This document shows, piece after piece, positions 6,474 to 24,969 of a DNA stretch of 64,000 nt. This DNA is from Candidatus Tectimicrobiota bacterium. GTDB lineage: Bacteria > JACPUC01. How positions within the stretch are numbered: the stretch's first letter is position 1; each line of letters begins with the position of its first letter. The stretch lies in assembly GCA_016192455.1 (NCBI GenBank), contig JACPUC010000008.1, positions 1-64,000 of the forward strand, in the 5' to 3' direction. A program made the translations under genes and the position numbers. The notes beneath the pieces are model-generated. The model saw only the letters and a program-made list of their open reading frames with translations. It was not told the DNA's origin and did no database searches.

Positions 6474-9400
6474 CTACTGGGTGCGGGCCTGCGCGGCCGC
6501 GCAGTCACTGAACCCGAAGTCCGCCGAGCCAATGCAATTAGCCCCGGCGATGGGGTTCGTTGAAGAGACGGAGACGTTGGACACCAGGGCGGCGCCCGAG
6601 ATGTTCTCAGCCGGGAAGAGGGCGGCGAAGGACCGACTGATACGTGAGTTGGCCGGGATGCTGATGGCCGTGCCGGTAACCCGGCGCACACTCGCCGCGC
6701 CGCCGCCGGTGCCGGGGGAGGTGATCCACAACGAGGGCGTCACTTCCTCCGCGGCATCGTTCGGGTTGACGATGATGTAACGGTCGTTCAGCCCAACCAC
6801 GTAGGGGAGAGTGAGACGGTTGCCGGTGGCCGCGGCGCCGGAACTGATCAGCACGCGGGCATCCGGCGGGAAGCTCGCGATCGTCGCGGCAACGCCGCCT
6901 GACGACGGTGAACTGACGATCTTCACCCAGCCGTCGCTGCCGGCGGTGCCCTCGCAGAGGTCACTCACCAAGCTCGCGACGGTCTCGCCGCCGGCCAGGC
7001 TGGCGGTGCTGCAAGTCACGGCCGACGCGCCGTCCGGGTAGGCCGTCATGGTCAGCGTCTGCGTGGCGTCCCCCACCGCGCTATCGATCAGGGCGAAGGC
7101 CACCCAGTTGCTGGTGGTCTGGTAATTCGCCACCACCACCGTGGTGGGCGGCGGAATGACGGTGAAGGTGCCGTCCGTCACGGTCGGCGTGGCGACGCCG
7201 GAGAAGGTGGCGAAGTCGCCGATGGCGAGGTCAAGGGCGCTGTCGCCCGTGCTCGCCGCCGCGGCGACGGTGAAGGTGATGGTGAGGATCGTCCCACCGG
7301 AAGCCACGTTGATGCCCTCGGCCGAGGACAAGGCGAAGCGCACCGTGCCCGCGCTGAGCTCCGGCGTGCCCTGCAAGCCCGTGGCCACGGTGACGGAGGT
7401 GGCGTTGAGGACGTTGGCGTCGTAGGTCAGCGAGCCGTCGATGGCCAGCAACTGTTCCAGCGCGCTCGCCGAGGTGATGGCCACGGCTACGCCGGTGGCG
7501 CCCGCGGTGCCTTGGCCATTCCCCGCCACGATGGTCGGCGCGGCAGCCTGATCCTTGGTCGCTTCGCTCGCCGCCGTGGTGGTGGCGCCGGTGCTGCAGA
7601 AGCTCGGCAGCGCCAAGCCGGCGTTGAGACGGAGCATGCAGGCGGCATCGATGGCGCCGGCGCGCCCGTTGCCGTCCAGGTCAATCGCGGCGATCTGCTC
7701 TGCCGTCAGCGTTTCGCCGCGGGCGATTGCTCGAAGAACGTCCAGGGCGTCGTCCGAGCCCACCGAGCCGTCACCATCCAAGTCGCCGGAACGGGCCGCG
7801 CCGGTCACGACGGCCGCGATAACCGTCACCGGGATTGCGGTCGACTGGTTGGTGGTGGTATTCCTCGCCGTCACCGTCGTGGTTCCAACCGCCACGCCGG
7901 TGATGACGCCAGCCGAGGTCACCGAAGCGGTAGCGGCATTCGCGGAGGTGAAGATCGCCGGGCCGCCCCGAACGACCGTGATGGTTTGCGTGGCGCCAAC
8001 CTGGACCGAGACGGTCGTGGGAGAGACCACCACTTGGCCGACGGCCGCAACGCTCGCCGTCCCTTCAACCCGCAGTGCCGTATACGGGAAGGTGGTATCG
8101 CTAAACGGCGTCCGATCCGTATAGCTGACAGTCAACGTGTCGCCAACGCCGGCTTTGATCGAGGTGTTGGCGATGGTGGTGGTGCTGCTCAGCGCCATCG
8201 GGCCGGTGAAGATGCCCGTGGAGAGGCCGGTTTCCCGCACGGTGGCCGTCGTGCCGACCACGTCCGTCGTGGTGCGGACCGAGACGGTGCGCGACTGCGC
8301 CACATCCGACTTCGTGTTCTCGTCGAGATCAGTCACGGTGATGACCACGGTGTCACCGATGCTGAAGGAGGTCGTCGTGGCCTGCTTCTTCGCGCCGGCG
8401 GAGGCCGCGGTGGTGGTGCTGCCGCCGAGGACGGAGAGCGCGATCGTCGCATCCGTGAAGCGCGCCGTGGCGTTCGCCGAGGCGGTGGCGAGGGTGCCGC
8501 TGGCGTTCTTGGTGTCGGAGTAGGTGGCGGTGACGCCATCGCCGTTCTGCACGATCAGGCGATCGTTGGTGTCATCGCTGGTGGTGCCAACCACGGTGGT
8601 GCTGCCGTCGGTATTGACAATGGTCTTGAAGATGCCGGTGAAGATGCCCGTGGTGCCGCCGGTCTCCGTCAAGTTCACGGTGATGCCGGTGGCGTTGTCG
8701 GTGGTGCTCTTCACGCCGACGTTCACGGTATCCGAGCCGGTGGTGACGTTAAGGTCGGCATCCGTCACCGTCACCAGCACACTATCATCGCCCTCGGTTC
8801 CGGAAACGCCTGGAATGATCGTCTGATCGATGCTGATCGTTCCGGTGTTCGTGGGGATGGTGGCGGAGGCGGTGGAGGCCACGGCGGCGCTCGGCGACAG
8901 GTCACGGTACTTGACGGTGATGGTGTCGCCGGGGCTGACGTGCAGGATCGCCGACGCCGCCGACGTCCCATCCGTGCTGACGATGGTGCTGCCGGTCCTG
9001 AACCTCAGGGCGCCGGTGAAGATGCCGGTGGTGCCCCCCGTCTCCACGACGCGGATGTTCGGGTCGCAACCGGCAGGGGTCGTGGTACAGTCGGTGCCGG
9101 CGTCGGTGATCGTACTACCCGACTGCGTCGTGTTCTCCACGTCGGAAGTGCTGAAGGCGTAGAGCCCATTGGTCAGGAACGAGTTGGCCGAGGTGGTGGT
9201 GTCGAGGTCGAGGTCGACCAGGGTCACCTCGGCGGTGCTGGTGACGGTGTACTGCGTGTTGTTGAGGGAGACCACCCCCTGGTTCGAAGCCGCCGAGACG
9301 GTCCTCGTGCGGGTCGCGACGGCCAGCGCCGACGCCGTCGTCGTGCTGCTGGTTAAGTTACAACTCGTGGTGGCGCAGACATCACCGAACTCAACCGTGA

Positions 9401-11054
9401 TGTCCTTGCCGTCCAGGACGTCGATCAGGGTCGCGGTCTTGGAATCGGTGCTCGCCACCAGGACCGCAACGGTGACCAGGGCCGTGAACTCATTCGTGTT
9501 GATGCCGGTCTCGCGCAGCGTCGGGATCAACGTGTCGTTCACGTTATCCGCCGTCCGCAGCGTCACCGCCGTGGTCGTATCGGTGACCGAGCCGCTGAGG
9601 TTGAGGTCCTTATCCACCACGGTGATGGTGAGGACGCTGCCGTTGCGCACGGCGCTCGGCGTCACGGTGAGCGTGCCGGACTCGGTGAGGAACGTCGCGG
9701 TGGCCGTCCGCGTCGCGGCCGTCGTGCTCCCTGACTGCGCATCCCGGTACTGCGCGGTGTAGGTGAAGTTCAGGCCGGCGTCCACCGTGCTGTTGTCCGT
9801 CGTCCCTTCGTCGAAATCGAAGCCGACGCGCAGGGTGAAGACGTTGGTGGCAAGGCCGGTCTCGGTCAAGGTGACGTTCTCGAGCGAGTCGGAGGCGCCG
9901 CTGCCGGCGGTGATGATGCGCACCGAGCCATCCGTCGGCGTGCCGCTCGAACTGATATCGGTGGAGGTGTTGGTCACCGTCGTATCGATGGCGCTGGGGG
10001 TGCCGACATCGGTATCGGTCACGGTGACGAGCATGGTGTCGCCGTTCGAGTACTCCGACTTGTCGAGCGCGATCGTCCCCGCGCTTCCCAGGGTGAACGT
10101 CGCCGTCGTCGAGGTGGTGGCCGTAGTGCCGGCGTCAACGCGGTCACTGGCGCGGCTGATCGTGATCGTGTCGCCGCTGCTGCTCGCCTTCAACGCAAAG
10201 GTCGTCGGAGTACTGAGGCTCGTGTCCCCGCTGCGCTCGGTGCCGCTACCGCTGGTCACGAAGCCTTTGCCGGTGAAGACGCCGGTGTTGCTGGCCGTTT
10301 CATTGAGCACCTGGCTGACGCCGGAGCCGCCGAGAATCTGCGACTTGACCGTCACGGTGACCGTCTGCTGCGAGGTGCTGCTGGTGTTATCGTCCGGATC
10401 GTTGTAGACGATCGTCATGTTCGGCGTATCCGCCGACGAAGAGACGATCGCAGTGCTCGTCGCCGCGATCGTGCTCGTCGAGCCGGTAAAGGTGCCGGTG
10501 CTGGTTTTGACGTTGCGGGTGATCGAGGCGGTGTTGCCGCTCGGGTTCGTGTAGCTGATGGTGACGACTTCGGTTCCCGCCGTCACCTGCAGGGTAGTGG
10601 AAACCGTCAGGGCGCCGCTGCCGCCGCCGCAGCCGAGGCCGGCGCAGAACAATACGCCCCTGGCGGCCCGAAGGCCGGACGGGTCGTCGGTCAAATTCGT
10701 CAAGCTCCCGAACCGTGTGCCGTTCGTGTCGCAGTCAGTCGCTGCCGACGTGGAGTTACAGTTCGAGAGGACCTTCGTTACCGAAGCGGCAGTGCCGCTG
10801 GCGGTCACCGTGACTGTCAACGTCGCGCCGGTGGTCGTCGGTCCGGACCCCCGGGCGTCGCCATCGACGACCGAGATGTACATCGTGTCCGTGGTGACGT
10901 GCGGCGGCAGGTACTGCGACCGGTCCGTACTGATGACCGGCACGGTAGCCGCCAGCGCCGCGTCGCGCGGCACCACGGGCCCCGCCAGCAGCACGGCCAG
11001 CACCGTAAGCGCCGCCACCGCCAGCAACTGCGTTTTGTGTCGTACACTAGTCAT
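6474..11054 (-). CDS. Giant secreted protein: ETG-type beta repeats, Big2, dockerin and cohesin-like modules
   Basis: 1,526 residues with a clear signal peptide (residues 8-36, cleaved near AALAA). Residues about 37-1000 form at least six repeats. Each has VTVTDxDLN-like strands and ends with an ETGxxTGxFTG motif (for example VNLTETGGTTGIFTG), an architecture seen in long surface-layer-like proteins. A Big2-like domain follows (about 1003-1083). Next is a dockerin module (about 1088-1152) with two calcium loops, DLDGDGSVGSDDALDVL and DLDGNGRAGAIDAACML, then a cohesin-like domain (about 1173-1300), and finally an unassigned beta-rich C-terminus with Cys pairs. The start at 11054 has AAGGAG at ideal spacing. 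It is probably cell-surface or matrix-forming, exported via Sec and possibly the nearby type II system; that route is inferred. Confidence 0.85.
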   Translation of the reverse strand: MTSVRHKTQLLAVAALTVLAVLLAGPVVPRDAALAATVPVISTDRSQYLPPHVTTDTMYISVVDGDARGSGPTTTGATLTVTVTASGTAASVTKVLSNCNSTSAATDCDTNGTRFGSLTNLTDDPSGLRAARGVLFCAGLGCGGGSGALTVSTTLQVTAGTEVVTISYTNPSGNTASITRNVKTSTGTFTGSTSTIAATSTAIVSSSADTPNMTIVYNDPDDNTSSTSQQTVTVTVKSQILGGSGVSQVLNETASNTGVFTGKGFVTSGSGTERSGDTSLSTPTTFALKASSSGDTITISRASDRVDAGTTATTSTTATFTLGSAGTIALDKSEYSNGDTMLVTVTDTDVGTPSAIDTTVTNTSTDISSSGTPTDGSVRIITAGSGASDSLENVTLTETGLATNVFTLRVGFDFDEGTTDNSTVDAGLNFTYTAQYRDAQSGSTTAATRTATATFLTESGTLTVTPSAVRNGSVLTITVVDKDLNLSGSVTDTTTAVTLRTADNVNDTLIPTLRETGINTNEFTALVTVAVLVASTDSKTATLIDVLDGKDITVEFGDVCATTSCNLTSSTTTASALAVATRTRTVSAASNQGVVSLNNTQYTVTSTAEVTLVDLDLDTTTSANSFLTNGLYAFSTSDVENTTQSGSTITDAGTDCTTTPAGCDPNIRVVETGGTTGIFTGALRFRTGSTIVSTDGTSAASAILHVSPGDTITVKYRDLSPSAAVASTASATIPTNTGTISIDQTIIPGVSGTEGDDSVLVTVTDADLNVTTGSDTVNVGVKSTTDNATGITVNLTETGGTTGIFTGIFKTIVNTDGSTTVVGTTSDDTNDRLIVQNGDGVTATYSDTKNASGTLATASANATARFTDATIALSVLGGSTTTAASAGAKKQATTTSFSIGDTVVITVTDLDENTKSDVAQSRTVSVRTTTDVVGTTATVRETGLSTGIFTGPMALSSTTTIANTSIKAGVGDTLTVSYTDRTPFSDTTFPYTALRVEGTASVAAVGQVVVSPTTVSVQVGATQTITVVRGGPAIFTSANAATASVTSAGVITGVAVGTTTVTARNTTTNQSTAIPVTVIAAVVTGAARSGDLDGDGSVGSDDALDVLRAIARGETLTAEQIAAIDLDGNGRAGAIDAACMLRLNAGLALPSFCSTGATTTAASEATKDQAAAPTIVAGNGQGTAGATGVAVAITSASALEQLLAIDGSLTYDANVLNATSVTVATGLQGTPELSAGTVRFALSSAEGINVASGGTILTITFTVAAAASTGDSALDLAIGDFATFSGVATPTVTDGTFTVIPPPTTVVVANYQTTSNWVAFALIDSAVGDATQTLTMTAYPDGASAVTCSTASLAGGETVASLVSDLCEGTAGSDGWVKIVSSPSSGGVAATIASFPPDARVLISSGAAATGNRLTLPYVVGLNDRYIIVNPNDAAEEVTPSLWITSPGTGGGAASVRRVTGTAISIPANSRISRSFAALFPAENISGAALVSNVSVSSTNPIAGANCIGSADFGFSDCAAAQARTQ

Positions 11055-11407
11055 GCCTGATCTCTCCTTTTTCACCGAGGTCGAACGTCCTCGCCATGAA
11101 CTCCTGCTTGAAGAGGTTAGGAAGAGTCCCTCCTGATGCGATCCGTTCACCTCCTTGTGTGCGGGTTTCATGCCGTGCGCTTTCCAACTTTTCCCCAATT
11201 CTTCTCGTAGGCTCTTTAGACCTGACGATTGCTGCGTCTCGATGAGAACTCTTCCGCGCGGTTCCGTTGGCCTCCCCCCTTGTTGGACCACTCACCCCAA
11301 CGCGCCGGCTCTCGCATCTTCCAGCGCGGCTCACCGCCTTCCGCCGCCCTCCTCACGACCCCGCCTCGCTCGGCGCGGGAGCTTCCTGCGCGCCACACGG
11401 TCCGGCC
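11055..11407 (-). other. Leader region of the giant secreted protein gene
   Basis: About 350 bp between the start codon at 11054 and the parS/repeat block. A decoy AAGGAGGTGA on the minus strand near 11150 is not followed by a usable start codon; the reading frame of the giant protein stays open here but encodes no signal-peptide-like sequence. I looked for known riboswitch cores, including c-di-GMP types, and saw none. It is probably part of the 5' untranslated leader made from the promoter at 11694-11722. Confidence 0.4.
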
Positions 11408-11445
11408 CTTGGTATGGAGGGCGTCATAGGGGGCGGCAACACCTC
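11408..11445 (+). repeat. 38-bp direct repeat, copy 1 (left of parS)
   Basis: A 38-base segment beginning CTTGGTATGGAGGGCG and ending GGCAACACCTC. It is identical base for base to 11474-11511 and in the same orientation. It ends one base before the parS palindrome. The function is unknown. Perfect identity in non-coding DNA suggests recent duplication or selection. Confidence 0.9.
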
Positions 11446-11446
11446 A

Positions 11447-11464
11447 ATGTTCCACGTGGAACAT
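11447..11464. promoter_or_regulatory. parS chromosome-partition site (ParB binding)
   Basis: A perfect 18-bp palindrome whose 16-bp core at 11448-11463 is TGTTCCACGTGGAACA. This matches the bacterial parS family (consensus close to TGTTNCACGTGNAACA) bound by ParB as the seed of the ParABS partition complex. It lies between genes, as parS sites usually do, and between two perfect direct repeats. No parA/parB genes and no second parS are in the window. parS sites tend to cluster near the replication origin, so this locus may be origin-proximal; that step is inference. Confidence 0.85.
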
Positions 11465-11473
11465 CGCCACCGA

Positions 11474-11511
11474 CTTGGTATGGAGGGCGTCATAGGGGGC
11501 GGCAACACCTC
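11474..11511 (+). repeat. 38-bp direct repeat, copy 2 (right of parS)
   Basis: Identical to 11408-11445 over all 38 bases and in the same direction, 9 bp right of the parS palindrome. The identity stops at both ends, so the unit is sharply bounded. Whether it recurs elsewhere in the genome cannot be seen here. Confidence 0.9.
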
Positions 11512-11881: not shown

Positions 11882-13750
11882 TCAGTCCGCGGGCGCTGCC
11901 GCCGGCAGAGCCACGGGGACATTCAGCGCCGGCCAGGTGGCCGTGGCGCCCTCTGCGTCGCGGGCGACGAAGACGATGCCGCCGAACTCACCCGCCGGCA
12001 GGGTGCGCGGCGGCAGGTCGCTGATGATGAGTTCGTAGGTCTGTTCATCGCGGGGGGAGAACCTGCCCAGGGGGACCTCGCCCGTGGGGTCGGTGATGTC
12101 GGACGGACGATACACCGCTTCGATCTCAATTCCACCCCCACCACCCCCCACCTCCGCGCGCATGGTCACCTCGCCGCCCTCCTCGGCGGAAAAGCTGGTC
12201 GGGCTGTCGGCGAATCCTGCCGAGAGGATGCGCAGGGGGCCGGAAATTTCCGGCGCCAGCTCCACGCTCAGCTCGCGGACCTCGCCGCGACTCGTCGTCA
12301 CCTCCTGCTCGACGGTGCGAAATCCCGTCGCGGAGATTTCCAGGCGCAGGGTCCCGACGGCTAGGTCGCTGAGCTGGAAGGCGCCGAGTTCATCGGTACG
12401 GACCTCGATCGCTCCGTCTGCGCTGCGCACCAATGCCCCGGCAAGAGCTTCGCCGCTGCGCGCCTGCACCACCGTTCCCCGCAAGGTGGCCGGCAGGGGC
12501 TCCAGGGTGGCATCGGCGGTGACCGTGGCATCGGCCCGGATCTCCACCCCCCGCACCGTCGCCTCGCGGTACCCTGGCGCGTTCACCGTCAATTCCACCG
12601 TGCCTGGGGAGAGGCCGGCGATGCTGTAGGCTCCCGCGCTGTCGCTGGCGGCCGAGAAGGAGGCGCCGGGGATGCGCACGCTCGCCCCCGCGACCGCCGC
12701 CCCGTCTCTGGCGCGCACCGTGCCGGAGATGCCGCCGCTGCGCCGCAGCTCGGTGAGCTGGAGATTCCGCGTGGTGGTGGCGTCGGCGCTGATGGTGAGG
12801 CCGCTCGCCTGCCCCACCTCGAAACCGCTCGCCGCCACACTCAGGCTGACGGTCCCGGGTGACAGGTCACTGAAGCGGAAGCTGCCGGCGGCATCCGTGC
12901 GCGTCGCCACGCCCGCCTCCGGCAGAGTCACCACGGCCCCTTGCACCGGCGCATTCGTGGCGCCAGCGGTGATCGTGCCGGCCAGGGCGCCCGTGGGGGC
13001 GGGCGGCGGCGTCTCGCCAGCCGCGCCGGAACCGGCGGCCGTCAGGCCAAAGACGCTCAGCCTGTTCCCCGACAGGACATAGGCGCGCCCGCTGCCCACC
13101 TCGAGGCCGCCGATGGTGGAGGGGTGCGAGACTTCCCGCACTTTCGTCAGGCTTGTGCGGTTCGTGGCATCGTAGAAGGTTGCCACCTGCCCGATCCCGG
13201 CCACGAGGAAGTCATCGACGAACTTCAGGTGCTGGACATTCGCGGACAAGTTCTGCACCACTGTGGTGGTCGTCGGCGCCGCGGGATTGCCGATGCCCAC
13301 GGCCGTGAGCGCCGTGCCGCTGGAGAGGTAGAAGACGCTCCCCGCCGCAACCACCGCGCGGACCTCCGCCGCAAGCTGAATGGTGGCGCTGGGCTGGGTG
13401 ACCCCGGCGGGCGATGCCATGTCGAAGAGGTCCAGGTTATTGCCGCGCGCCGCCGCGAGGACGGCGCCGCTGACCGCCAAGAGAGTGGGGATGCCGGCGA
13501 GGTTCACCCCCTCCAGGAGGGTCTCCACGGTCGGCGCCGCGCCTTGCGCCCGCGCAGGTCCCGCCATCCACCCCAGGACAAGGAGAATCACCAGCAGGGC
13601 GCGCGCGGCGGCTCTGGCTGCCGGATTGCAAGGAATCCTCCCCAGCCTGAGCTTGCAGCCGCGCCCGGGAGCCTGCGCCGCGCGGATTTGCGTCCCCCTC
13701 CGGCCGCCAAGCCACCATCCTCTACTGTGCGGGGGGGGAGTTGGCATCAT
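11882..13750 (-). CDS. Secreted propeller-like protein with three carboxypeptidase-regulatory domains
   Basis: About 622 residues. A long charged N-region precedes a hydrophobic signal segment (ALLVILLVLGWMAGPARAQG). The first half (about 60-240 after the signal) has repeats resembling LVIVD-type beta-propeller blades, e.g. LEVGSGRAYVLSGNRLSVFG and DDFLVAGIGQVATFYDA. Three CarboxypepD_reg-like modules follow (GTITAGATNAPVQGAVVTL, GTVRARDGAAVAGASVRI, GTVVQARSGEALAGALVRS), then a C-terminal beta domain. The start is uncertain: paired ATGs at 13750/13747 are chosen as nearest to the signal peptide, but the ribosome site is weak. It shares module types with the metalloprotease at 1073 and the giant protein at 45190. 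The role is unknown, probably extracellular or envelope. Confidence 0.75.
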   Translation of the reverse strand: MMPTPPPHSRGWWLGGRRGTQIRAAQAPGRGCKLRLGRIPCNPAARAAARALLVILLVLGWMAGPARAQGAAPTVETLLEGVNLAGIPTLLAVSGAVLAAARGNNLDLFDMASPAGVTQPSATIQLAAEVRAVVAAGSVFYLSSGTALTAVGIGNPAAPTTTTVVQNLSANVQHLKFVDDFLVAGIGQVATFYDATNRTSLTKVREVSHPSTIGGLEVGSGRAYVLSGNRLSVFGLTAAGSGAAGETPPPAPTGALAGTITAGATNAPVQGAVVTLPEAGVATRTDAAGSFRFSDLSPGTVSLSVAASGFEVGQASGLTISADATTTRNLQLTELRRSGGISGTVRARDGAAVAGASVRIPGASFSAASDSAGAYSIAGLSPGTVELTVNAPGYREATVRGVEIRADATVTADATLEPLPATLRGTVVQARSGEALAGALVRSADGAIEVRTDELGAFQLSDLAVGTLRLEISATGFRTVEQEVTTSRGEVRELSVELAPEISGPLRILSAGFADSPTSFSAEEGGEVTMRAEVGGGGGGIEIEAVYRPSDITDPTGEVPLGRFSPRDEQTYELIISDLPPRTLPAGEFGGIVFVARDAEGATATWPALNVPVALPAAAPAD

Positions 13751-14190
13751 GCGCTCGCTCAACATCCTCTGCAGGTGCGGCCGCCGCCTCGCGCCAGACC
13801 GAAAAGAGCAGACACAGCCGCTCCGCGCCGCGCCGCGCCATCCGCGGACGCGCTGTAAATTGGAAGCAAGGTCAATGCCAAAACGATTGACATTGCTCCC
13901 CTTTTCTTGCTCCGCTCTGGAGCCACCCAAAATCGCGCAAATGCCCATGCCGCTTCGCCTCCCGCATGTGCGCCCGCGCTCGTCCCAGCACCCTGCGTGC
14001 TGGCGATGCCAAGCGCGGGGCATCAACTGTGTCGTATGGACAGCATGCGCTATGTAAAACTTACATACCATTCAGGCTGGGCATGCGCCAGCCGCTTGCA
14101 CCGTCACACCTCCGGCCGCCGCCGCTGGCGCTTCGCGCCAACGCCAGGACGGCCCCTTGCCCAGCAAGGCGCCGCAGACCGCGCCCTTCT
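13751..14190. other. Intergenic gap, 440 bp
   Basis: It contains a 17-bp dyad at 14051-14067 (listed separately). It also has a 43-codon minus-strand frame at 13762-13893 that begins with a hydrophobic stretch but has too little support to call. A possible TTTACA box overlaps the dyad on the minus strand, with no good -10 partner. Nothing else was recognised. Confidence 0.5.
14051..14067. promoter_or_regulatory. Dyad, possible operator
   Basis: TATGTAA-AAC-TTACATA is a perfect 7-bp inverted repeat with a 3-bp spacer, AT-rich against a GC-rich background. It lies 300 bp upstream of the secreted protein starting at 13750 and 123 bp past the stop of the TPR gene. Its size suits a dimeric regulator. 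No regulator gene is adjacent. Confidence 0.4.
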
Positions 14191-16231: not shown

Positions 16232-19200
16232 CTACGAGCCCCCCCGGCCCGCTCGCTCGAGCTGTTCCTTGAGGCGGAGTACGCGGTTTTGGAACTCGGT
16301 CGTCAGCGAGGCGGCTTCCTCGCTGCTTTTCACCACCCGCGGGGTGATGGCCACCAAGAGCTCCGTGCGCTGCGACTGCTTCGTCACGCGCGAGAAGAGC
16401 CTGCCCAGCACCGGGATGCTCCCCAGCAGGGGCACCTTCGAGTCGGTGGAGGTCTCGTTCTCGGAGATCAGGCCCGCCAGGAGCACTGTGTTCCCATCCT
16501 GCACCACGATCGTCGACTTCGATTTGCGGGTCTGAATGGTCGGCGCGTCGATCCCCGAGGTCACCGTGCGCCTGGCGTTGCTGAACTCCTGGTCGAGGTC
16601 CAGGGTGACGAGGTTGTTGGTGTTGATCGAGGGGGTGAAGGTGAGGGTCACGCCGGTGGGGCGGAACTGCACGTTGCGATCGACGACGGGTTGCGGCTGG
16701 CCCGCCTGGGCGCCCGCCTGGGCGAGCACGCCGGCCACACCGGTCGTCGTCTCGCCGGTGACGATGGGCACCTCATCGCCGACGTTGATCGAGGCCTGCT
16801 TATTGTTCGTCGCCAGCAGGTGGGGATTGGAGAGGACCTTCACCCGCGACTCGCTGGCCAGGGCATTGAACAGGAGGTTGAGCCGCGGCGCATCCACGAA
16901 GTTGAAGGCCAGACCGCCCGAGGGCGGCAGCGCAATTCCCGGAAACGCCGTCTGTACCTCGCCGCGGAAGTCGACGAACTTCTCCTCCCCCTGGCGGAAT
17001 ATGCCACCCGCAAACCCTTGCAAAGCTTGCACGCCATACTCGAGGTCATCCCCAAGGGTGACCTCCAGGAAGAGCATCTCCAAAAGCACCTGCTTGGGGC
17101 GCAGGTCGAGCTTCTTGATCGTCGCCTCGATGAGCTGGTAGTCGCCCGGGGTCGACTGCACGATGAGGGAGTTCGTCACCTCGTCGGCGATGATGCGGAC
17201 CGGGCCTTCGGTGGCCGAGCGCAGGCCCTCCTGGAGTCCTGGCGCTGCGGCGGGGGTCGGCGGCGGTGGGGCCGCCGGAGGCTGCGCCGGCCGCTGCTCC
17301 TGCCCGCGCCGCGCCGCCCGCTCCAGGGGGGTGGTGGGCCGCGGCGGCTGGGCCGCTGCTTGCCCCTCCGTCGGCGGCGCCCCGGGGCGCTTCGCATCCG
17401 CGCCATACAGGCCGGTGAGCAGCGACGCCAGCTCCGTGGCCTTGCGATGCTCGACGAAGTAGACGAACGTCTGCAGGCCCTTGGCCTCCGCCTCGATGTC
17501 GAGCTTTTCGATGAGGCTCTCCACCGAGTCCATCAGCGCCGGCGTCGAGGCGAGGATCAGGACTGACTTGACGCGGTCGATGGGAAGGAACTCGACTCCG
17601 CCCCCTTTCGAAATCTTGTCGATCCCCAGCATGGTGTAGATCTTGTCGAGATCCTTCACCAGGTCGGTGCCGGTCAGATGCTTGACGGGCAGCAGCTTCA
17701 AACTGATGTTCTCGAAGGTGTCGACATCGAACATCTCGATGAGGTCGAGCAGGCTCTGGATGTTGGAGGCCAGGTCCACCAGGACGAGCAGGTTGCGCGG
17801 CGCGAAGGCCCGCGCCTCGCCGTTCTTTGACACGAACGGCTTCAGCAGCTCGGCCATCTTGCTGGCCGAGATGAAGTACAGCGGCAGCACCCGCGTCACC
17901 ACCTTATCAATCGGACGGAGACGCCCCGGTTCACGCCCGAACTCGGTTTCAACCTGCGTCTGCCGCGACTGGGTGATGGGCAGGATCTTCCAGACGTTCC
18001 CGGAGCGAACCGCAGTCAGGTTGTTGGTCTCCAGGATGGTGTGGAAGAGATCAAAGACCTCGTCGACGGAAATGCGCCCCGCGGTCTCTATCGTCACCTT
18101 GCCGCTGACACCCGGAGCAACGACGTAGTTCAGGCCGGTAATCTCGCTGATGACCTGGATGACCTCGTAGATGTCAGCATTGTCGAAGTTGAACGATACG
18201 AAGCGGGTGGCGGCGTCAATGCGCGGCACACTGCGCCCCGGCAGCCGCAGGCCCTCCCCCCGCCGTGGCGCGGGGCGGCGTGCCTCCGGCGGCGCGGCGG
18301 GCCGGGCCGGCGCCGGCTCCTTCGCCGCCTCGGCCGGGGCTTGCGCCGCCGGGGGCTCCGCAGGGGCCGGCGCGGCGCTGGGCGGCTGCGCCTCAGGCGC
18401 AGGGAGCGGCACCTCGGGCTGCCTCGCCGCCTCCCCTTCCGGCGCTCCCTCCGGCGCTGCGGGCGGCGCTGTTTCCGCAGCAGGCAGCTCCGGGAGGGGC
18501 GGGGCTTCCGGGGCGGGCGGCGCTTCCACCGCGGGGGGCGCCTCGACAACAGGCGGCTGCTCGGCGGCGGGAGCCACAGGGGCGGGCTGCGGCTGCGCCG
18601 CCTCCTCACTAGCTGCCGGGGCTCCCTCTTCTTGGCGCAGTTGCGCAAGGTGGAGGGATCCAACGGCCACCTCGCCCGCCAGACCGACACGCTGCAGGGC
18701 AGGGTCCGCCTCGAAGACGGGGTGCGCAACCGCAACTTCGCGCCCCGGCCTCCCCCTCCCTGTCTGCCGGGTCAGAGCTGCCGCGGCTTGCTCCCGGCGC
18801 CGCAACGCAGGCGACCCCCCCTGCTGAAAGGGACTTACGCCGGGGGATGAGGCTCCGCCTGCGTCTCCAGCCGTCTCACGCCCTGCACCCCCTGTCGGAT
18901 CGTCGCTCCCGGCGACAGCGGCCGCGCGCCCGCGCCCAGCCTCCGCTGCAGGCCGACGCTTGGCCGCCATGGCGGCGCGCTTCTCACCCGGCTGCGCCGC
19001 TTGCTGCCGGGCGACGCTCCCCGCCACCCGCCCACGCTCGGGAGGACTTCCCGGCGAAGCAGCAGATGGTGGCTCGGCAGGGGTTTCCAGCGGCGCTGGC
19101 GGGGTATCGGACTGCGCAACCGCCGGCAATGATCGGCTCTGGGCCACTGGTTTCGCCGAGCGCCAGGGGAGGACCCGGGCCGCTCGGTCCACGACGCAGC

Positions 19201-19261
19201 CGCTGAGCAGCAGGCTCAGGGCGGCCAGCGCGAGGAGCCGTCGCGGCCAGCGCAGACCCAT
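16232..19261 (-). CDS. gspD: Type II secretion secretin GspD, lipoprotein with long Pro/Ala/Glu-rich N-terminal region
   Basis: About 1,009 residues, well above the usual 650-700. It forms the outer-membrane channel of the type II system. From the start at 19261, a signal peptide ends in a lipobox LLLSGC (Cys22). A low-complexity Pro/Ala/Glu/Arg-rich stretch runs to about residue 340. N0 (FNFDNADIYEVIQVISEITG, about 345-430) and further N domains come next, interrupted by a second Pro/Gln/Ala-rich insert near 17210-17400. The secretin core (about 715-960) holds NVGDEVPIVTGETTTG, the V-P-x-x-x-G gate signature. An alternative start at 19372 overlaps the gspC stop as TGATG, which suggests coupling, but leaves the signal peptide far from the N-terminus. 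Confidence 0.92.
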   Translation of the reverse strand: MGLRWPRRLLALAALSLLLSGCVVDRAARVLPWRSAKPVAQSRSLPAVAQSDTPPAPLETPAEPPSAASPGSPPERGRVAGSVARQQAAQPGEKRAAMAAKRRPAAEAGRGRAAAVAGSDDPTGGAGRETAGDAGGASSPGVSPFQQGGSPALRRREQAAAALTRQTGRGRPGREVAVAHPVFEADPALQRVGLAGEVAVGSLHLAQLRQEEGAPAASEEAAQPQPAPVAPAAEQPPVVEAPPAVEAPPAPEAPPLPELPAAETAPPAAPEGAPEGEAARQPEVPLPAPEAQPPSAAPAPAEPPAAQAPAEAAKEPAPARPAAPPEARRPAPRRGEGLRLPGRSVPRIDAATRFVSFNFDNADIYEVIQVISEITGLNYVVAPGVSGKVTIETAGRISVDEVFDLFHTILETNNLTAVRSGNVWKILPITQSRQTQVETEFGREPGRLRPIDKVVTRVLPLYFISASKMAELLKPFVSKNGEARAFAPRNLLVLVDLASNIQSLLDLIEMFDVDTFENISLKLLPVKHLTGTDLVKDLDKIYTMLGIDKISKGGGVEFLPIDRVKSVLILASTPALMDSVESLIEKLDIEAEAKGLQTFVYFVEHRKATELASLLTGLYGADAKRPGAPPTEGQAAAQPPRPTTPLERAARRGQEQRPAQPPAAPPPPTPAAAPGLQEGLRSATEGPVRIIADEVTNSLIVQSTPGDYQLIEATIKKLDLRPKQVLLEMLFLEVTLGDDLEYGVQALQGFAGGIFRQGEEKFVDFRGEVQTAFPGIALPPSGGLAFNFVDAPRLNLLFNALASESRVKVLSNPHLLATNNKQASINVGDEVPIVTGETTTGVAGVLAQAGAQAGQPQPVVDRNVQFRPTGVTLTFTPSINTNNLVTLDLDQEFSNARRTVTSGIDAPTIQTRKSKSTIVVQDGNTVLLAGLISENETSTDSKVPLLGSIPVLGRLFSRVTKQSQRTELLVAITPRVVKSSEEAASLTTEFQNRVLRLKEQLERAGRGGS

Positions 19262-19371
19262 CCTCCGCCCCACCCTCTCGGCCCGCGGCAGACCCCGGCT
19301 GCAGACCGCAGCGGCTCTGCGGGCGGCGGGAACCGTGCTGCAAGGGTGGCTCGCCGGGAGGCTTTCTGCCA

Positions 19372-20133
19372 TCACTTCTTCTCGGCCGGTTTCTCGGCTG
19401 CTTTGGCGGCCGGCGCCGGCTGTGCCGCGGGCGCCGCGGCCGCCGCGGCCGGTCTGGCTGGTTGCGGCGGCGCCGCAGCCTTAGCCGCCGGCGGGGGTGA
19501 CGCAGGCGCCTTCGGACGGTCTTTCAGCATGGTCGGATCGCGCACCAGGAGAGTCTCCTTCTGGCCGTTGCTCTCGAGGACCACGCGATCGCGCTCGATC
19601 TCGACGATGCGGAAGTCGCCGACCTTCTGACCGACGCGATAGTGGCGCGTGGTGCGTTGGGCCGGCGGCGGCACCACGCGCTGGAGGTTTCCCGGTCGGC
19701 GGGGCGTTGCACTGCCGACTTTCAGGATGGCGAAGCGCGCCTTCGGGCCGTAGATGAGCGTGCCAAAAAGTTGCACGTCCTCGAGGCGCACTGGCTTCTC
19801 GTCTTTCGGGGCGACGATGGTGGGTTCCGGCGCCGCGACTGGAGCTGGAGTGCGTTTCTCGTCTTCGGCGGCGCCGGGTTTCACCGGGGTGGGCGGCGGC
19901 AGGGGCTCGCGCCGCGTCGGATAGAAGAGGCTCTCGTCCACGATAATGCCGTAGTCGTTCTGCGGCCGAATGGCGCGTTGGAAGGTAAACCGCGGCGGCG
20001 TCGGAGTATCACGCCGGCTGAGCGTCGGCAGGGGGAGATGCTGGGGCGGCGTGGTCGTCCAGACGTTAAGCGCCGAATACCCAAGGCCGAGCGCCAGGGC
20101 CAGGAGCGCCAGGTTGAAGAGAACTACCCGCAT
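19372..20133 (-). CDS. gspC: Type II secretion inner-membrane protein GspC-like (no PDZ domain)
   Basis: 253 residues. One N-terminal membrane helix (VVLFNLALLALALGLGYSAL) is followed by a Pro-rich linker and then a homology-region-like beta domain (VQLFGTLIYGPKARFAILKV ... GQKVGDFRIVEIERDRVVLE). This is the part of GspC/PilP that contacts the secretin N0 domain. The protein ends in an Ala/Pro/Lys tail rather than the PDZ or coiled coil of classical GspC, so a PilP-like identity is an alternative. ATG at 20133 is preceded by GAGGTGGGC. It overlaps gspD as TGATG and has its own candidate promoter at 20208-20236. Confidence 0.82.
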   Translation of the reverse strand: MRVVLFNLALLALALGLGYSALNVWTTTPPQHLPLPTLSRRDTPTPPRFTFQRAIRPQNDYGIIVDESLFYPTRREPLPPPTPVKPGAAEDEKRTPAPVAAPEPTIVAPKDEKPVRLEDVQLFGTLIYGPKARFAILKVGSATPRRPGNLQRVVPPPAQRTTRHYRVGQKVGDFRIVEIERDRVVLESNGQKETLLVRDPTMLKDRPKAPASPPPAAKAAAPPQPARPAAAAAAPAAQPAPAAKAAEKPAEKK

Positions 20134-20207
20134 GCCCACCTCATCAATCCCTGCCGCCTCACTGCTCGAGACGGAGCAGCGATGGGATTCGCTCTCTGCA
20201 AGGGGCT

Positions 20208-20236
20208 ATTCTATATGCTGAGCAACTTTCAAGCAA
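20208..20236 (-). promoter_or_regulatory. Candidate promoter for gspCD
   Basis: On the minus strand: TTGCTT (20231-20236), a 17-bp spacer and TAGAAT (20208-20213), with the same -10 as the promoter at 11694. The gspC start is 75 bp downstream of the -10. A 6-bp stem hairpin (20238-20243 with 20252-20257) sits just upstream of the -35 and could weakly end the gspM transcript. The -35 matches only the TTG part of the consensus. Confidence 0.5.
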
Positions 20237-20354
20237 CCACCCCAATCCCTAGGGGTGACCCTTGACGTCGGCTCCTGTGACGTCTACCCAGGCTGGGGCC
20301 GAGCCAGTTCGCCGGGCTGCTCCGCCTGCCGCCTGCTCCCTCCGGGCAGCGCGA

Positions 20355-20939
20355 TCAGGACCCCTTTGGAGCCGCTCCGGTCGGCTTTTTCGGTTCCCGC
20401 AACAGGGCGGTAACGACGAAGCGGGCGCGAATGGTGCTGGGGTTCTGGCGGTTCGCCACCTCGATCGACAGCTCCGGAATCGCCAGGAACTTGGCGTACG
20501 CCTCGATCAGGTAGATCAACTGGCTGAGATTCCTGATCGAGGTTCGCGCATTGATCTCGACGGGGATGCGCAGGAAGCTGCCGGCCTCGACCGGGTCGAG
20601 GATCTTTTCGCGCTCGATCTTTACCCCTGCGCGCCGCGCCAGCTCCTTCAGGACCTGCTGCACCTCCGCCGCCGTAAGGGGCGCCTTGTCGCCCGTGTAG
20701 ATGATCGCGTCGAGCTGCTGCAACGCCGCCGTGAGGCTCTGGCGATAGAGCGTCAGACCCTTGCGCCGGGCGACGATGCGCTGGTAGGTGCGAAGCTGCT
20801 CCTGCTGCCGGGCGATCTCCTCCCGCACGTGGCGCTGCCGGCGGATGAGCGGCTCGATCCCGTAGGCATAGGCGAGAAAGCCGACCACGACCACCCCCAA
20901 GAGAAGAAGAGCGCGGCGATCACGTTGCTTCAGGGCCAT
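20355..20939 (-). CDS. gspM: Type II secretion protein GspM/PilO-like
   Basis: 194 residues: one N-terminal membrane helix (RRALLLLGVVVVGFLAYAYG), a basic coiled-coil stretch (about 30-75) and a ferredoxin-like periplasmic domain ending in RARFVVTALLREPKK. In type II systems GspM pairs with GspL to form the inner-membrane assembly platform; PilO plays the same part for type IV pili. The gene follows gspL after 75 bp. The sequence resembles PilO as much as GspM, but the surrounding pseudopilin genes support GspM. Confidence 0.8.
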   Translation of the reverse strand: MALKQRDRRALLLLGVVVVGFLAYAYGIEPLIRRQRHVREEIARQQEQLRTYQRIVARRKGLTLYRQSLTAALQQLDAIIYTGDKAPLTAAEVQQVLKELARRAGVKIEREKILDPVEAGSFLRIPVEINARTSIRNLSQLIYLIEAYAKFLAIPELSIEVANRQNPSTIRARFVVTALLREPKKPTGAAPKGS

Positions 20940-21014
20940 GGATGCGAGGTCCCTCTGCTGAGTGCCGCGTTGCTCCGGCCCGCCCGCGGCGGTATGGCAG
21001 CGCGGGGCACGTCG

Positions 21015-22493
21015 TTACCGTTCGAGATCGAGCCGAATCTGGAAGTTCTCCCGACCGCCGCTGCTCGTGATCGGGGCCGTGAAGACGACGTTCTCGAAGA
21101 GCGGCGAGGCCTCCAGGGTGGGGATGAGGTTGGAGGCGGCTTCGGCCAGGCCGTTGATCTCCACTCGGCCACTCTTGTACCGCAGGCGTTCGATGTAGGC
21201 CGTCTTGGGAATCGTCACGGTGAGTTCGCGCAGGATCTCGAGCTTGACGATCGCCTCTTCCTTCATCCCTTCGAACTGGCGCAGCAGTTTCTCCTGCTCC
21301 TGCAGCTTGCTCTCCAGGTCGCGCACCTCGAAGACCTCGCGCCGCAGCTCTTTCACCTGGCGCTCAAGCTCGGCCAGGGTGCGGCGCTGCTGCACGGCCC
21401 CTCCGGCGACGTACGCCCCGCCAAGCAACAGGACAAGGCAAAGGAGGGCCACCGTGCTCACCATGCTGACCCGGCTCTGTTTCTTGCGCTGCTCCAGCGG
21501 CACGAGGTTGCAACTGGGATCCTGCGGATCGTACGCCAGCGCCGCGAGCCCCGCCACGGTATGCACCATGCCGGGGTCGTAGTCCGGCCGCCGCCGCACG
21601 GCATCCGGCAACCGCGCCGGCCCCATGCCGGTGAGCACACTGCCGGGGTAGCGTTGCTCGAGGTGCGGCAGCACCGCCTCGCGCAGCCCCCGCGGCCCGT
21701 GCAGCACCGCCTGCCGCACCAGGGGGACGCCGAGGGTGGAGCGGGCGACGAGGAGCACCCGTTCCAGCTCGCGCTCGAGGGGAGACCAGGGGTCCCCGGC
21801 GTCAAGGCGCACCGCGTGGCAGGCGAGCAGGCGGCGCCGATGCGCGATGGAGATATCGGCCCGCGGCACGCCGCCGGCGCCCTCCTGGACTTCACCGTGC
21901 GCCACCCCCGGCGCTTCCAGATTGATCAGCAGCACCGGCTCCTCGTTGGCGGCGGTGGCCAGCCAGAAGCGCAGCAATCCCGAGGCTGCGAGGTCAATGT
22001 GGGTCGGCTCGACGCCGGCCTGTTTAAGGACGCCCGTCATCTCATCGAGATCGCGCTTGCGAACCGCCAAGGTGAGGGTGAGGAGATTACCATTGCGCTG
22101 CAGGACTGGGCAGTAGTCGGTATAGGCCTCGGCGGGCGCGAAGGGGAGGTGGCGTTCGAGCTCGAAGCGCATGAGCTGCGGCAGGTTCTCGGCGGCGCTG
22201 GCGGGCACCTCGACGTATTGCACGATGGCGACATGGCGTGGGATGCCCAGAACGACGTGCTGCGGCCCGCCGCCGTGCTGGCGTTCGATGAAACTGCGCA
22301 GGTGGTCGGCGAGGCTGCGCTCGCCGGCGGTGGCGGAGGTCCCCGGCGCGGCGGCGGGACTTGAGCCGGCTGCCGCGCCCGGGCGGGGCAGGACCTCATA
22401 GTCATGCAGGGCGACGCGCGAGCGACCACGCACCCAGCCGCACACCAGGGCATCGCTCCGCCACTCCAGGGTAAGGCACGTTCCGGCGCTCAT
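21015..22493 (-). CDS. gspL: Type II secretion platform protein GspL (PilM-PilN-like fusion)
   Basis: 492 residues. Residues 1-330 form an actin-like cytoplasmic domain (CLTLEWRSDALVCGWVRG, VVLGIPRHVAIVQYVEVP, MRFELERHLPFAPAEAYTDY) as in PilM or the GspL cytoplasmic part, which binds the ATPase GspE. One membrane helix follows (VSTVALLCLVLLLGGAYVAG), then a coiled coil rich in Glu/Arg/Gln and a PilN/GspL periplasmic ferredoxin-like domain. The start is ATG 22493, with GAGGAG overlapping the end of gspK. The hydrophobic and coiled-coil arrangement matches the GspL/GspM heterodimer platform. Confidence 0.85.
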   Translation of the reverse strand: MSAGTCLTLEWRSDALVCGWVRGRSRVALHDYEVLPRPGAAAGSSPAAAPGTSATAGERSLADHLRSFIERQHGGGPQHVVLGIPRHVAIVQYVEVPASAAENLPQLMRFELERHLPFAPAEAYTDYCPVLQRNGNLLTLTLAVRKRDLDEMTGVLKQAGVEPTHIDLAASGLLRFWLATAANEEPVLLINLEAPGVAHGEVQEGAGGVPRADISIAHRRRLLACHAVRLDAGDPWSPLERELERVLLVARSTLGVPLVRQAVLHGPRGLREAVLPHLEQRYPGSVLTGMGPARLPDAVRRRPDYDPGMVHTVAGLAALAYDPQDPSCNLVPLEQRKKQSRVSMVSTVALLCLVLLLGGAYVAGGAVQQRRTLAELERQVKELRREVFEVRDLESKLQEQEKLLRQFEGMKEEAIVKLEILRELTVTIPKTAYIERLRYKSGRVEINGLAEAASNLIPTLEASPLFENVVFTAPITSSGGRENFQIRLDLER

Positions 22494-22500
22494 GCGGGCG

Positions 22501-23688
22501 TTACTCCTCTTCCCGTTCTGCGAGGCCATCGGTGAAGCCGGCGAAGCTCGGCGGCTGCGGCGCCCGCAGGACGTTGTCATCCCAGGCGCTCACGACGATC
22601 GGGCCGCTGCGCGAGCCGGCCCCTCCCTGCTCGATGCGGGCGGCGACGCGGCGCACGTTGGGGCTGCCGGGGAAGAAGCCTTCCGCCACGACGTAGAAAC
22701 TCGTCGACGTCGTCGTCAGCCCACGGTAGCGCCGCGCCTGACGCGGCAGCAAGCGGTGCGGGCGCCCCGCGACGATGTGGTCGGCGACCGTCTGCGACAC
22801 CCCGAGGGCCTGCAAGACGAGGAGCGGCGCCGTATTAAGGTTCACCGGCCCGCGCCCCCCGACGGTGAGGAAATGGACCAGCCCAAGGTACTCATCGGAG
22901 TCGCTCGGCGCCGGGCAGTCGGGCGGCGGCTCATAGGGGGGGAGCTGGCCGCCGGTGCCGTGGAAGAGTGCCGGCGAGACGCAGCGCACGAGGAGGAGTT
23001 CCTCGACGCTGTCGAAGTTCCCATTCTTCGCCTCGTAGGGCTGCGGCAAGCTCTTGTAGTAGTCGCTCTCGGCGCCGTTCAGACGGCGGGCGTTCCCGTG
23101 GTCGCGCCAGTCCAGGATCGAATCGACGATGATGCTGCGGAGTTGATCGTCGACCACGCCGGTGAAGCGCAGCAAGCGCTCAAGCTGGTAACTCGACAGG
23201 GAGTTCAGGTTCAGCTTGCTCTCGTCATCTTCGAGGATCACCCGCACGGCGCCGCGGCCGATGGCCACCCCCTGGGGGAGCTGCAGCCGGCCCAAGAGCG
23301 AGAGGGGTGCGCTGGCCGAGGTCTCCTCGGCTTTCTTGTCCGGCTCACTGCTCTCTCCCTCCGGGGTGTAAACGAGCGAGCCACTGCAACCCTGCAGGAT
23401 GTTGAGGTCGGGATCGCGATAGACGCAACGCGGCAGGCGCAGGATTTCGGTCGCGGCAAGGTTGAGGCCGGCTCTCGCAGCGTAGTAGGCCTGCGTCTCA
23501 TCCATGAAATTCCGCGTCGCCAGGGAATCGATGCGCCGGCTCTCAATGTACTCGCTGGCAATGATGGAGAGCATGGTAATGACGAAGAGGACCATGAGGA
23601 GGGCGATGCCGCGCTCACCGCCCGCCCGCCGCGCCCAGCCGGCGCCTAGCGCCTTCGGCAGCCTGTCCATGGGCGGCACACGCCTCAT
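22501..23688 (-). CDS. gspK: Type II secretion minor pseudopilin GspK
   Basis: 395 residues. The prepilin-like segment GERGIALLMVLFVITMLSII (near 24-43) is followed by a large globular part, as expected for GspK, the tip pseudopilin that caps the I-J-K complex. Conserved traits include LNLNSLSSYQLERLLRFTG and VNLNTAPLLVLQALG, helix-hairpin-helix-like stretches typical of GspK. The residue after Gly is Ile, followed by Ala-Leu-Leu, without Glu at +5; lack of Glu5 is a known GspK trait. The start ATG 23688 overlaps the gspJ stop as ATGA and has GGGGAG five bases upstream. Confidence 0.9.
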   Translation of the reverse strand: MRRVPPMDRLPKALGAGWARRAGGERGIALLMVLFVITMLSIIASEYIESRRIDSLATRNFMDETQAYYAARAGLNLAATEILRLPRCVYRDPDLNILQGCSGSLVYTPEGESSEPDKKAEETSASAPLSLLGRLQLPQGVAIGRGAVRVILEDDESKLNLNSLSSYQLERLLRFTGVVDDQLRSIIVDSILDWRDHGNARRLNGAESDYYKSLPQPYEAKNGNFDSVEELLLVRCVSPALFHGTGGQLPPYEPPPDCPAPSDSDEYLGLVHFLTVGGRGPVNLNTAPLLVLQALGVSQTVADHIVAGRPHRLLPRQARRYRGLTTTSTSFYVVAEGFFPGSPNVRRVAARIEQGGAGSRSGPIVVSAWDDNVLRAPQPPSFAGFTDGLAEREEE

Positions 23689-24449
23689 TCTTTCTCCCCG
23701 GCTTGCTCCCGGAAGGTGGATTGAGCGACCCGGCTGAGCTGCACGTTCACCGGCAGACTCACGGCGACCGGTGGCATCGGCTCTTTCTCGTCTTCATAGC
23801 GGATCGCCAGGCGGACCGCCGCCGGCAAGCGGCGCTTCACTTTCGAGTCCCAGGCGTTGAGCCACACCCCCTGGCTTGATTCCGGATCGAGGTACTCGAA
23901 GCGCAGCTCGCGCACGTCAGGGGACAGCACTGTATCGGTTCCCTTGCTGAAGGAATCGTCACTCGGCGGCAAGCCCAGCGGCCCCTCGTGGAGCACCAGC
24001 CCGTCTTTCTGCCTGGCACGGTAGCTGACAGCCCGCATGAGGTGCGCGCCGCGCTTGTCCTGCAGGCTCCCCGTGGCGGTGAAGAACTTCAGCTCCTCGC
24101 GCGTCCCCTGGAAAACGATCTTCTCGTTGCGGGCATTCAGGACGCTCGAGCGCAGCTCCTGGGCAAGCTGATCGACGAGCACGCGATGACGCTGGAAAGT
24201 ATCCGCCAGGCTCGTATCCCGCTCCCAGGTGCGCACCCCGAGGTGCATGGCGCCGAAGAGCACGCCGAGCGTGAGTGCCAGGATGGTGATCGAGATGACC
24301 ACCTCCATGAGAGTGAAGCCCGCCTGCCTCGGCGCGCTTTGCTGCGGAGCCAGGCTCGCGCCGCGGCGCGGCTCGAGGCGCCCTGCCGGCTGGGCGGCGC
24401 GGCGCGCCGTGAGGCGGCCTCTGGGGGAACACAGCGTCCTACGAGCCAA
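23685..24449 (-). CDS. gspJ: Type II secretion minor pseudopilin GspJ
   Basis: 254 residues. A long basic leader ends at the prepilin site QAGFTLMEVVISITILALTL, with Glu at +5 after cleavage between Gly and Phe. The hydrophobic helix is followed by a GspJ-type globular domain (FQRHRVLVDQLAQELRSSV, LRFEYLDPESSQGVWLNAW). No ATG precedes the pilin motif in a likely place. The best start is TTG 24449, with GGGAGG five bases upstream, overlapping the gspI end by 11 bp. The leader of about 47 residues is longer than usual. Confidence 0.88.
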   Translation of the reverse strand: MARRTLCSPRGRLTARRAAQPAGRLEPRRGASLAPQQSAPRQAGFTLMEVVISITILALTLGVLFGAMHLGVRTWERDTSLADTFQRHRVLVDQLAQELRSSVLNARNEKIVFQGTREELKFFTATGSLQDKRGAHLMRAVSYRARQKDGLVLHEGPLGLPPSDDSFSKGTDTVLSPDVRELRFEYLDPESSQGVWLNAWDSKVKRRLPAAVRLAIRYEDEKEPMPPVAVSLPVNVQLSRVAQSTFREQAGEKE

Positions 24450-24969
24450 GGAGACCTCCCGTCTGCCTCTCCTGCGCCGACCCGCCCGCGACGAGCCGCA
24501 CCGTGCGCAGCTCAAAGCTCTTGCCCCGGGGCGGCTGGCCGCCCCACGTCACCGTCACGACGACGTCGTAAAACTTCGGCTCGATGAGCTGCCGCAGCTC
24601 GCTGCTGGAGCGCCCGGCGGCCGCGGCTTGATTCTGCTCCCCCGTTCCTTCTTGGTTCTCCGCTTGGCGCTCCGCGATGCGGACCTGCCACCCATACGGC
24701 GTGCCCTCGAAACGCCCGCTCAAGCTGCCTTCTTGAATCTCCGGCGTAGCCAGCGTCTCCTCCATCTTCGTGCTGGCGAGGAAGACCGCCTTCGTGTACT
24801 CCTGGGCGGTGCGAGCGCTCTTCAGCCCGCCGGCGAAGAGCTCGATAAGGAGGACGAGGCTCCCCCCCATGATTGCCAGGGCAACCATCACCTCCAAGAG
24901 CGAGAAGCCGCGCGCCGCGGCACTGGATGGGCCTCCGCCCGCACCAAGCCACGCCAGCCGGCGGCTCAT
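24439..24969 (-). CDS. gspI: Type II secretion minor pseudopilin GspI
   Basis: 176 residues. A short leader and prepilin motif (ARGFSLLEVMVALAIMGGSL, Glu at +5) are followed by the N-terminal helix and a small globular domain with KMEETLATPEIQEGSLSG and YGWQVRIAE, typical of GspI, which nucleates the pseudopilus tip. A Gln/Glu/Ala-rich insert near residues 105-125 is probably a surface loop. Its start overlaps the gspH stop as ATGA, so translation is probably coupled. Confidence 0.9.
   Translation of the reverse strand: MSRRLAWLGAGGGPSSAAARGFSLLEVMVALAIMGGSLVLLIELFAGGLKSARTAQEYTKAVFLASTKMEETLATPEIQEGSLSGRFEGTPYGWQVRIAERQAENQEGTGEQNQAAAAGRSSSELRQLIEPKFYDVVVTVTWGGQPPRGKSFELRTVRLVAGGSAQERQTGGLLGS

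Follow-up and report, generated by a model that had tools for sequence, protein, structure and literature searches.

A dockerin and a cohesin on one ETG-repeat protein of a Candidatus Tectimicrobiota bacterium: a candidate surface-layer linker

The role that cohesin and dockerin modules play outside cellulosomes is an open question, and their function there has been stated as unknown (PMC5244752). The genome of a Candidatus Tectimicrobiota bacterium bears on that role: in the window analysed here (the whole stretch of 64,000 nucleotides), an open reading frame (ORF), W, encodes a putative surface protein in which a dockerin and a cohesin follow each other on the same polypeptide. A preliminary description of this locus had read the protein as a non-cellulosomal scaffold, which might chain head to tail or gather other dockerin proteins. 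The question is whether both modules are genuine, and which partners they would bind. The features of W are as follows.

6474..11054, minus strand: ORF W, 1526 aa, putative secreted ETG-repeat surface protein with a dockerin and a cohesin
10947..11054, minus strand: predicted Sec signal peptide, residues 1-36, cleavage near ALAA, from composition
8055..10946, minus strand: ETG-repeat beta region, residues 37-1000, six motifs
7836..8045, minus strand: Big_2-like Ig domain, residues ~1004-1073, 22.0 bits
7635..7787, minus strand: type I dockerin, residues 1090-1140, PF00404, two intact calcium loops
7542..7634, minus strand: dockerin-cohesin linker, ~31 aa, low confidence (model residues 72-85 with pLDDT <50)
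7149..7541, minus strand: cohesin, residues ~1172-1302 by structure, Pfam match at residues 1189-1298
6477..7148, minus strand: C-terminal region, residues 1303-1526, without a Pfam match

The reading frame around W is open over 6474..11291 on the minus strand, and translation is taken to start at the ATG at 11054, which is preceded by a GGAG Shine-Dalgarno sequence ~9 nt 5' of it. Threonine and serine together make up 30% of the protein. Its body contains six ET(A/G)xx(T/S)xxF motifs, at residues 252, 398, 515, 671, 797 and 941, where shuffled sequences are expected to contain 0.01; the first of them reads ETA and the other five exactly ETG, in agreement with the at least six repeats claimed before. 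The Big_2-like domain (PF02368) that follows scores just below the Pfam cut-off of 22.8 (E 1.6e-4), and the fold model of the C-terminal region is of low confidence (pLDDT 35.5). A search for loci related to the whole W protein returned no relatives. With a profile built on the ETG region, relatives came to light in 11 other genomes, all at sites distinct from those of the dockerins and cohesins among the matches listed; the sampled relatives share no rank closer than domain with the W genome.

Part of the NCBIfam model NF052345, which describes the Kustd1514-family S-layer glycoprotein of anammox bacteria (PMC5088730), is matched by the ETG region of W at 66.9 bits and by that of a paralogue on contig C22 of the same genome (here called C22) at 211.8 bits. 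As both scores lie far under the curated cut-off of 1400, an S-layer-like body is weakly suggested for W as a resemblance in sequence, not as membership in that family; cohesins and dockerins are not mentioned in PMC5088730.

The dockerin of W scores 29.4 bits against PF00404 in the full-length protein and 35.6 bits as a segment alone, over a cut-off of 22.9. Both F-hand calcium loops (DxDxDG/DxDxNG...D) are intact in the translation, at D1091-D1102 and D1125-D1136, and the two-loop dockerin of the preliminary description is thereby confirmed. The recognition positions 10/11 of the two loops are unlike each other (S-D vs A-I). This assignment is based on the sequence, since the structure matching covered the cohesin part alone.

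The cohesin proved harder to find. A full-length Pfam scan of W reported no cohesin, and an NCBIfam scan gave no cohesin or dockerin name. When residues 1160-1305 were scanned alone, the cohesin family PF00963 was matched at 28.9 bits (E 1.5e-6, cut-off 24.1), and in the genome translated in six frames it scored 28.5 bits. Because the segment alone recovers the domain, its absence from the full-length result is artefactual, probably a consequence of the composition correction; in a threonine-rich protein, such a scan can thus overlook a genuine cohesin. Furthermore, AlphaFold2, run with a three-row alignment on the dockerin-cohesin segment (mean pLDDT 73.8), predicted a beta-sandwich for the cohesin, with blocks mostly at 69-94. 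The top Foldseek matches of this model are all cohesins, and in VIA-align the cohesin part superimposes on solved cohesins with Z 17.5 and 1.5 A over 126 residues, a match to the nine-strand jelly-roll cohesin fold; the archaeal, non-cellulosomal cohesin of A. fulgidus (2xdh) is matched at Z 17.3. Judged from profile and predicted fold together, the W cohesin is real. The preliminary description had named two outcomes that would tell against its cohesin-like domain, the lack of a profile match at residues 1173-1300 and the lack of a jelly-roll, and the domain survived both, although the full-length scan by itself would have counted as the first.

As to possible partners, searches of the contigs with the Pfam profiles found three cohesins in the W genome, those of W and of two further proteins, encoded on contigs C3 (L013:2368-7122) and C4 (L014:5236-9207), and one dockerin, that of W. 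In the C3 and C4 proteins the cohesin is followed by CarboxypepD_reg repeats, and each of the two cohesins is 34% identical to that of W; the C4 cohesin, at 22.1 bits, is below the Pfam cut-off. A permissive search of the 4.46 Mb assembly with the W dockerin (E up to 10) returned weak matches only, whose ORFs contain no dockerin loops. The assembly is 88.19% complete, and further dockerins may be missing from it.

These counts uphold the label non-cellulosomal, as the W dockerin is the only one found in the genome and no enzyme bears one; a cellulosome was rejected for this organism, the 88% complete assembly having yielded no second dockerin and hence no dockerin-bearing enzymes. The suggestion that the W cohesin gathers other dockerin proteins did not hold up in the same assembly, where no other dockerin was found. 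A related alternative is that this cohesin gathers dockerin proteins encoded in the 12% of the genome that the assembly lacks, bearing divergent dockerins, or made by neighbouring organisms. The incomplete assembly leaves room for such partners and sampled genomes often contain many dockerin proteins, but the permissive search revealed no second dockerin in 4.46 Mb, and we regard this alternative as distinctly unlikely.

The paralogue C22 shows what W has in addition. The two proteins are collinear from their signal peptides up to and including Big_2 (39-41% identical), the Big_2 domain of C22 scoring 30.7 bits and hence over the 22.8 cut-off. Past this domain C22 runs straight to its C-terminal region, which is weakly similar to that of W (Z 5.1 against shuffles), with no dockerin-cohesin cassette. 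The cassette is therefore a discrete difference between the two putative surface-protein paralogues. The W genome is thus a minimal test case, with one dockerin, three cohesins and a paralogue without the cassette, in which all pairs are testable together.

Our preferred reading, which we hold tentatively and at somewhat less than an even chance, is that W is an S-layer-like surface protein whose dockerin joins the cohesins of other W copies, those of the C3 and C4 proteins, or both, so that W would act as a surface-layer linker. The dockerin would be a calcium-dependent plug into a cohesin on another molecule. Its partner may be the cohesin of the next W copy, which would produce a head-to-tail link, or the cohesins of the CarboxypepD_reg proteins encoded on C3 and C4, presumably also at the surface; in either case W would link the organism's own surface layer, not a cellulosome. 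Should the modules bind within the organism, one dockerin would have to suffice for the three cohesins, in the pairs W-W, W-C3, W-C4 or in cis. Head-to-tail chaining of W is possible and agrees with the counts of modules; just as well, the dockerin could bind the C3 or C4 cohesins or close on the cohesin of its own chain. Quite unlikely, in our estimate, is the more elaborate arrangement of an S-layer-like lattice whose subunits or attached proteins are held together by a cohesin-dockerin pairing that is self-complementary and calcium-dependent, a single dockerin serving the three cohesins of the genome.

The preliminary description had assumed that cohesins and dockerins normally sit on different proteins, which is wrong outside enzyme/scaffoldin pairs. 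Among 290 sampled genomes, 59 contain a cohesin and 78 a dockerin (E up to 0.001), and at least 11 of the 290, including the W genome, encode the two within a single open frame; either module may come first, and the linkers are mostly of 9-57 residues. For L074 (Nitrospinae), L032 and L033, Pfam scans bear out the presence of both modules on one chain. Published cases comprise the planctosome adaptor (PMC6461901), scaffoldin-like proteins of ANME archaea (PMC9012536) and adaptor scaffoldins (PMC5934362). In view of these genomes and published cases, the pairing itself is already known and recurrent, and what is new in W is the protein context.

These pairs bear on the possibility of a closure in cis, in which the dockerin binds the cohesin next to it on its own chain; the pair would then be a structural unit that caps or stiffens the C-terminal end and links nothing. 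The two modules of W are adjacent, the low-confidence linker of ~31 residues is probably long enough to loop back, and the recurrence of adjacent, closely spaced pairs in many genomes and both orders gives them the look of a conserved local unit. However, L074 has a cohesin-dockerin-cohesin triplet, as does L075 by reading, and in genome G039 three cohesins precede one dockerin; one dockerin cannot fill all of these, and closure in cis seems to us rather unlikely. In the L075 protein (L075:2228-4753, from Schekmanbacteria), the apparent order is cohesin, dockerin, cohesin and then a hydrophobic segment at the C-terminus. Of these, Pfam picks up the dockerin alone, just below the cut-off, a further sign that divergent cohesins are under-called.

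It may also be that the two modules do not bind at all, the cohesin being a generic beta-sandwich spacer or a sugar-binding module and the dockerin a calcium-stabilised spacer. The lack of a stated function outside cellulosomes (PMC5244752) and the excess of cohesins over dockerins in the W genome, 3 to 1, would suit such a reading; nevertheless, both calcium loops are intact, for which a module acting purely as a spacer has no obvious use, and the two modules co-occur in distant lineages, and we consider it unlikely.

The proposed linker can be set beside several named systems. The planctosome adaptor of Nemodlikiaceae planctomycetes (PMC6461901) is, like W, a non-cellulosomal protein with a signal peptide, a dockerin and a cohesin, for which an adaptor role has been proposed; it differs in its HYR domain and in the dockerin-bearing peptidases proposed as its partners, whereas the body of W is of the ETG/Big_2 type and its genome yielded no second dockerin protein. 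The scaffoldin-like and S-layer/dockerin proteins of ANME (PMC9012536) likewise combine a dockerin and cohesins on one polypeptide, and in ANME-2c a dockerin is joined to S-layer domains; unlike W, they are archaeal, with up to five cohesins and many dockerin partners. In Ruminococcus flavefaciens, adaptor scaffoldins such as ScaC (PMC5934362) carry a cohesin and a dockerin on one chain and link other molecules, but they do so in a cellulosome with many dockerin-bearing enzymes, and descriptions of them mention no ETG repeats. A further similar arrangement is that of L074, from Nitrospinae bacterium RIFCSPLOWO2_12_FULL_45_22, which has the same dockerin-cohesin order, a similar spacing and ~35% identity over the tandem; in contrast to W, its tandem lies on a right-handed beta-helix protein with a second cohesin ahead of it.

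Two features upstream of W touch on its export and surroundings.

11882..14071, minus strand: W2, upstream neighbour of W, with three CarboxypepD_reg domains
16232..24515, minus strand: type II secretion operon gspJ-K-L-M-C-D, upstream of W, GspD and GspM over cut-offs

The CarboxypepD_reg domain type is common to W2 and the two other cohesin proteins, C3 and C4. From its position, the type II secretion operon is a possible export route of W. Between this operon and the putative threonine/serine-rich surface proteins lies a gene (14191-16032, minus strand) for a membrane protein that bears TPRs at its C-terminus and a FTYDDGLVIAGNP stretch at its N-terminus, and that we take to resemble TMTC-type O-mannosyltransferases.

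The gap between W2 and W holds two identical 35-bp direct repeats (11408-11442 and 11474-11508), of which a search at up to 3 mismatches found no further copy in the genome. They are placed nearly symmetrically around a perfect parS-type palindrome, TGTTCCACGTGGAACA, at 11448-11463. This palindrome occurs in 13 exact copies on 10 contigs of the genome, against 0 for a reversed-pattern control, and its sequence is present in the literature on parS.
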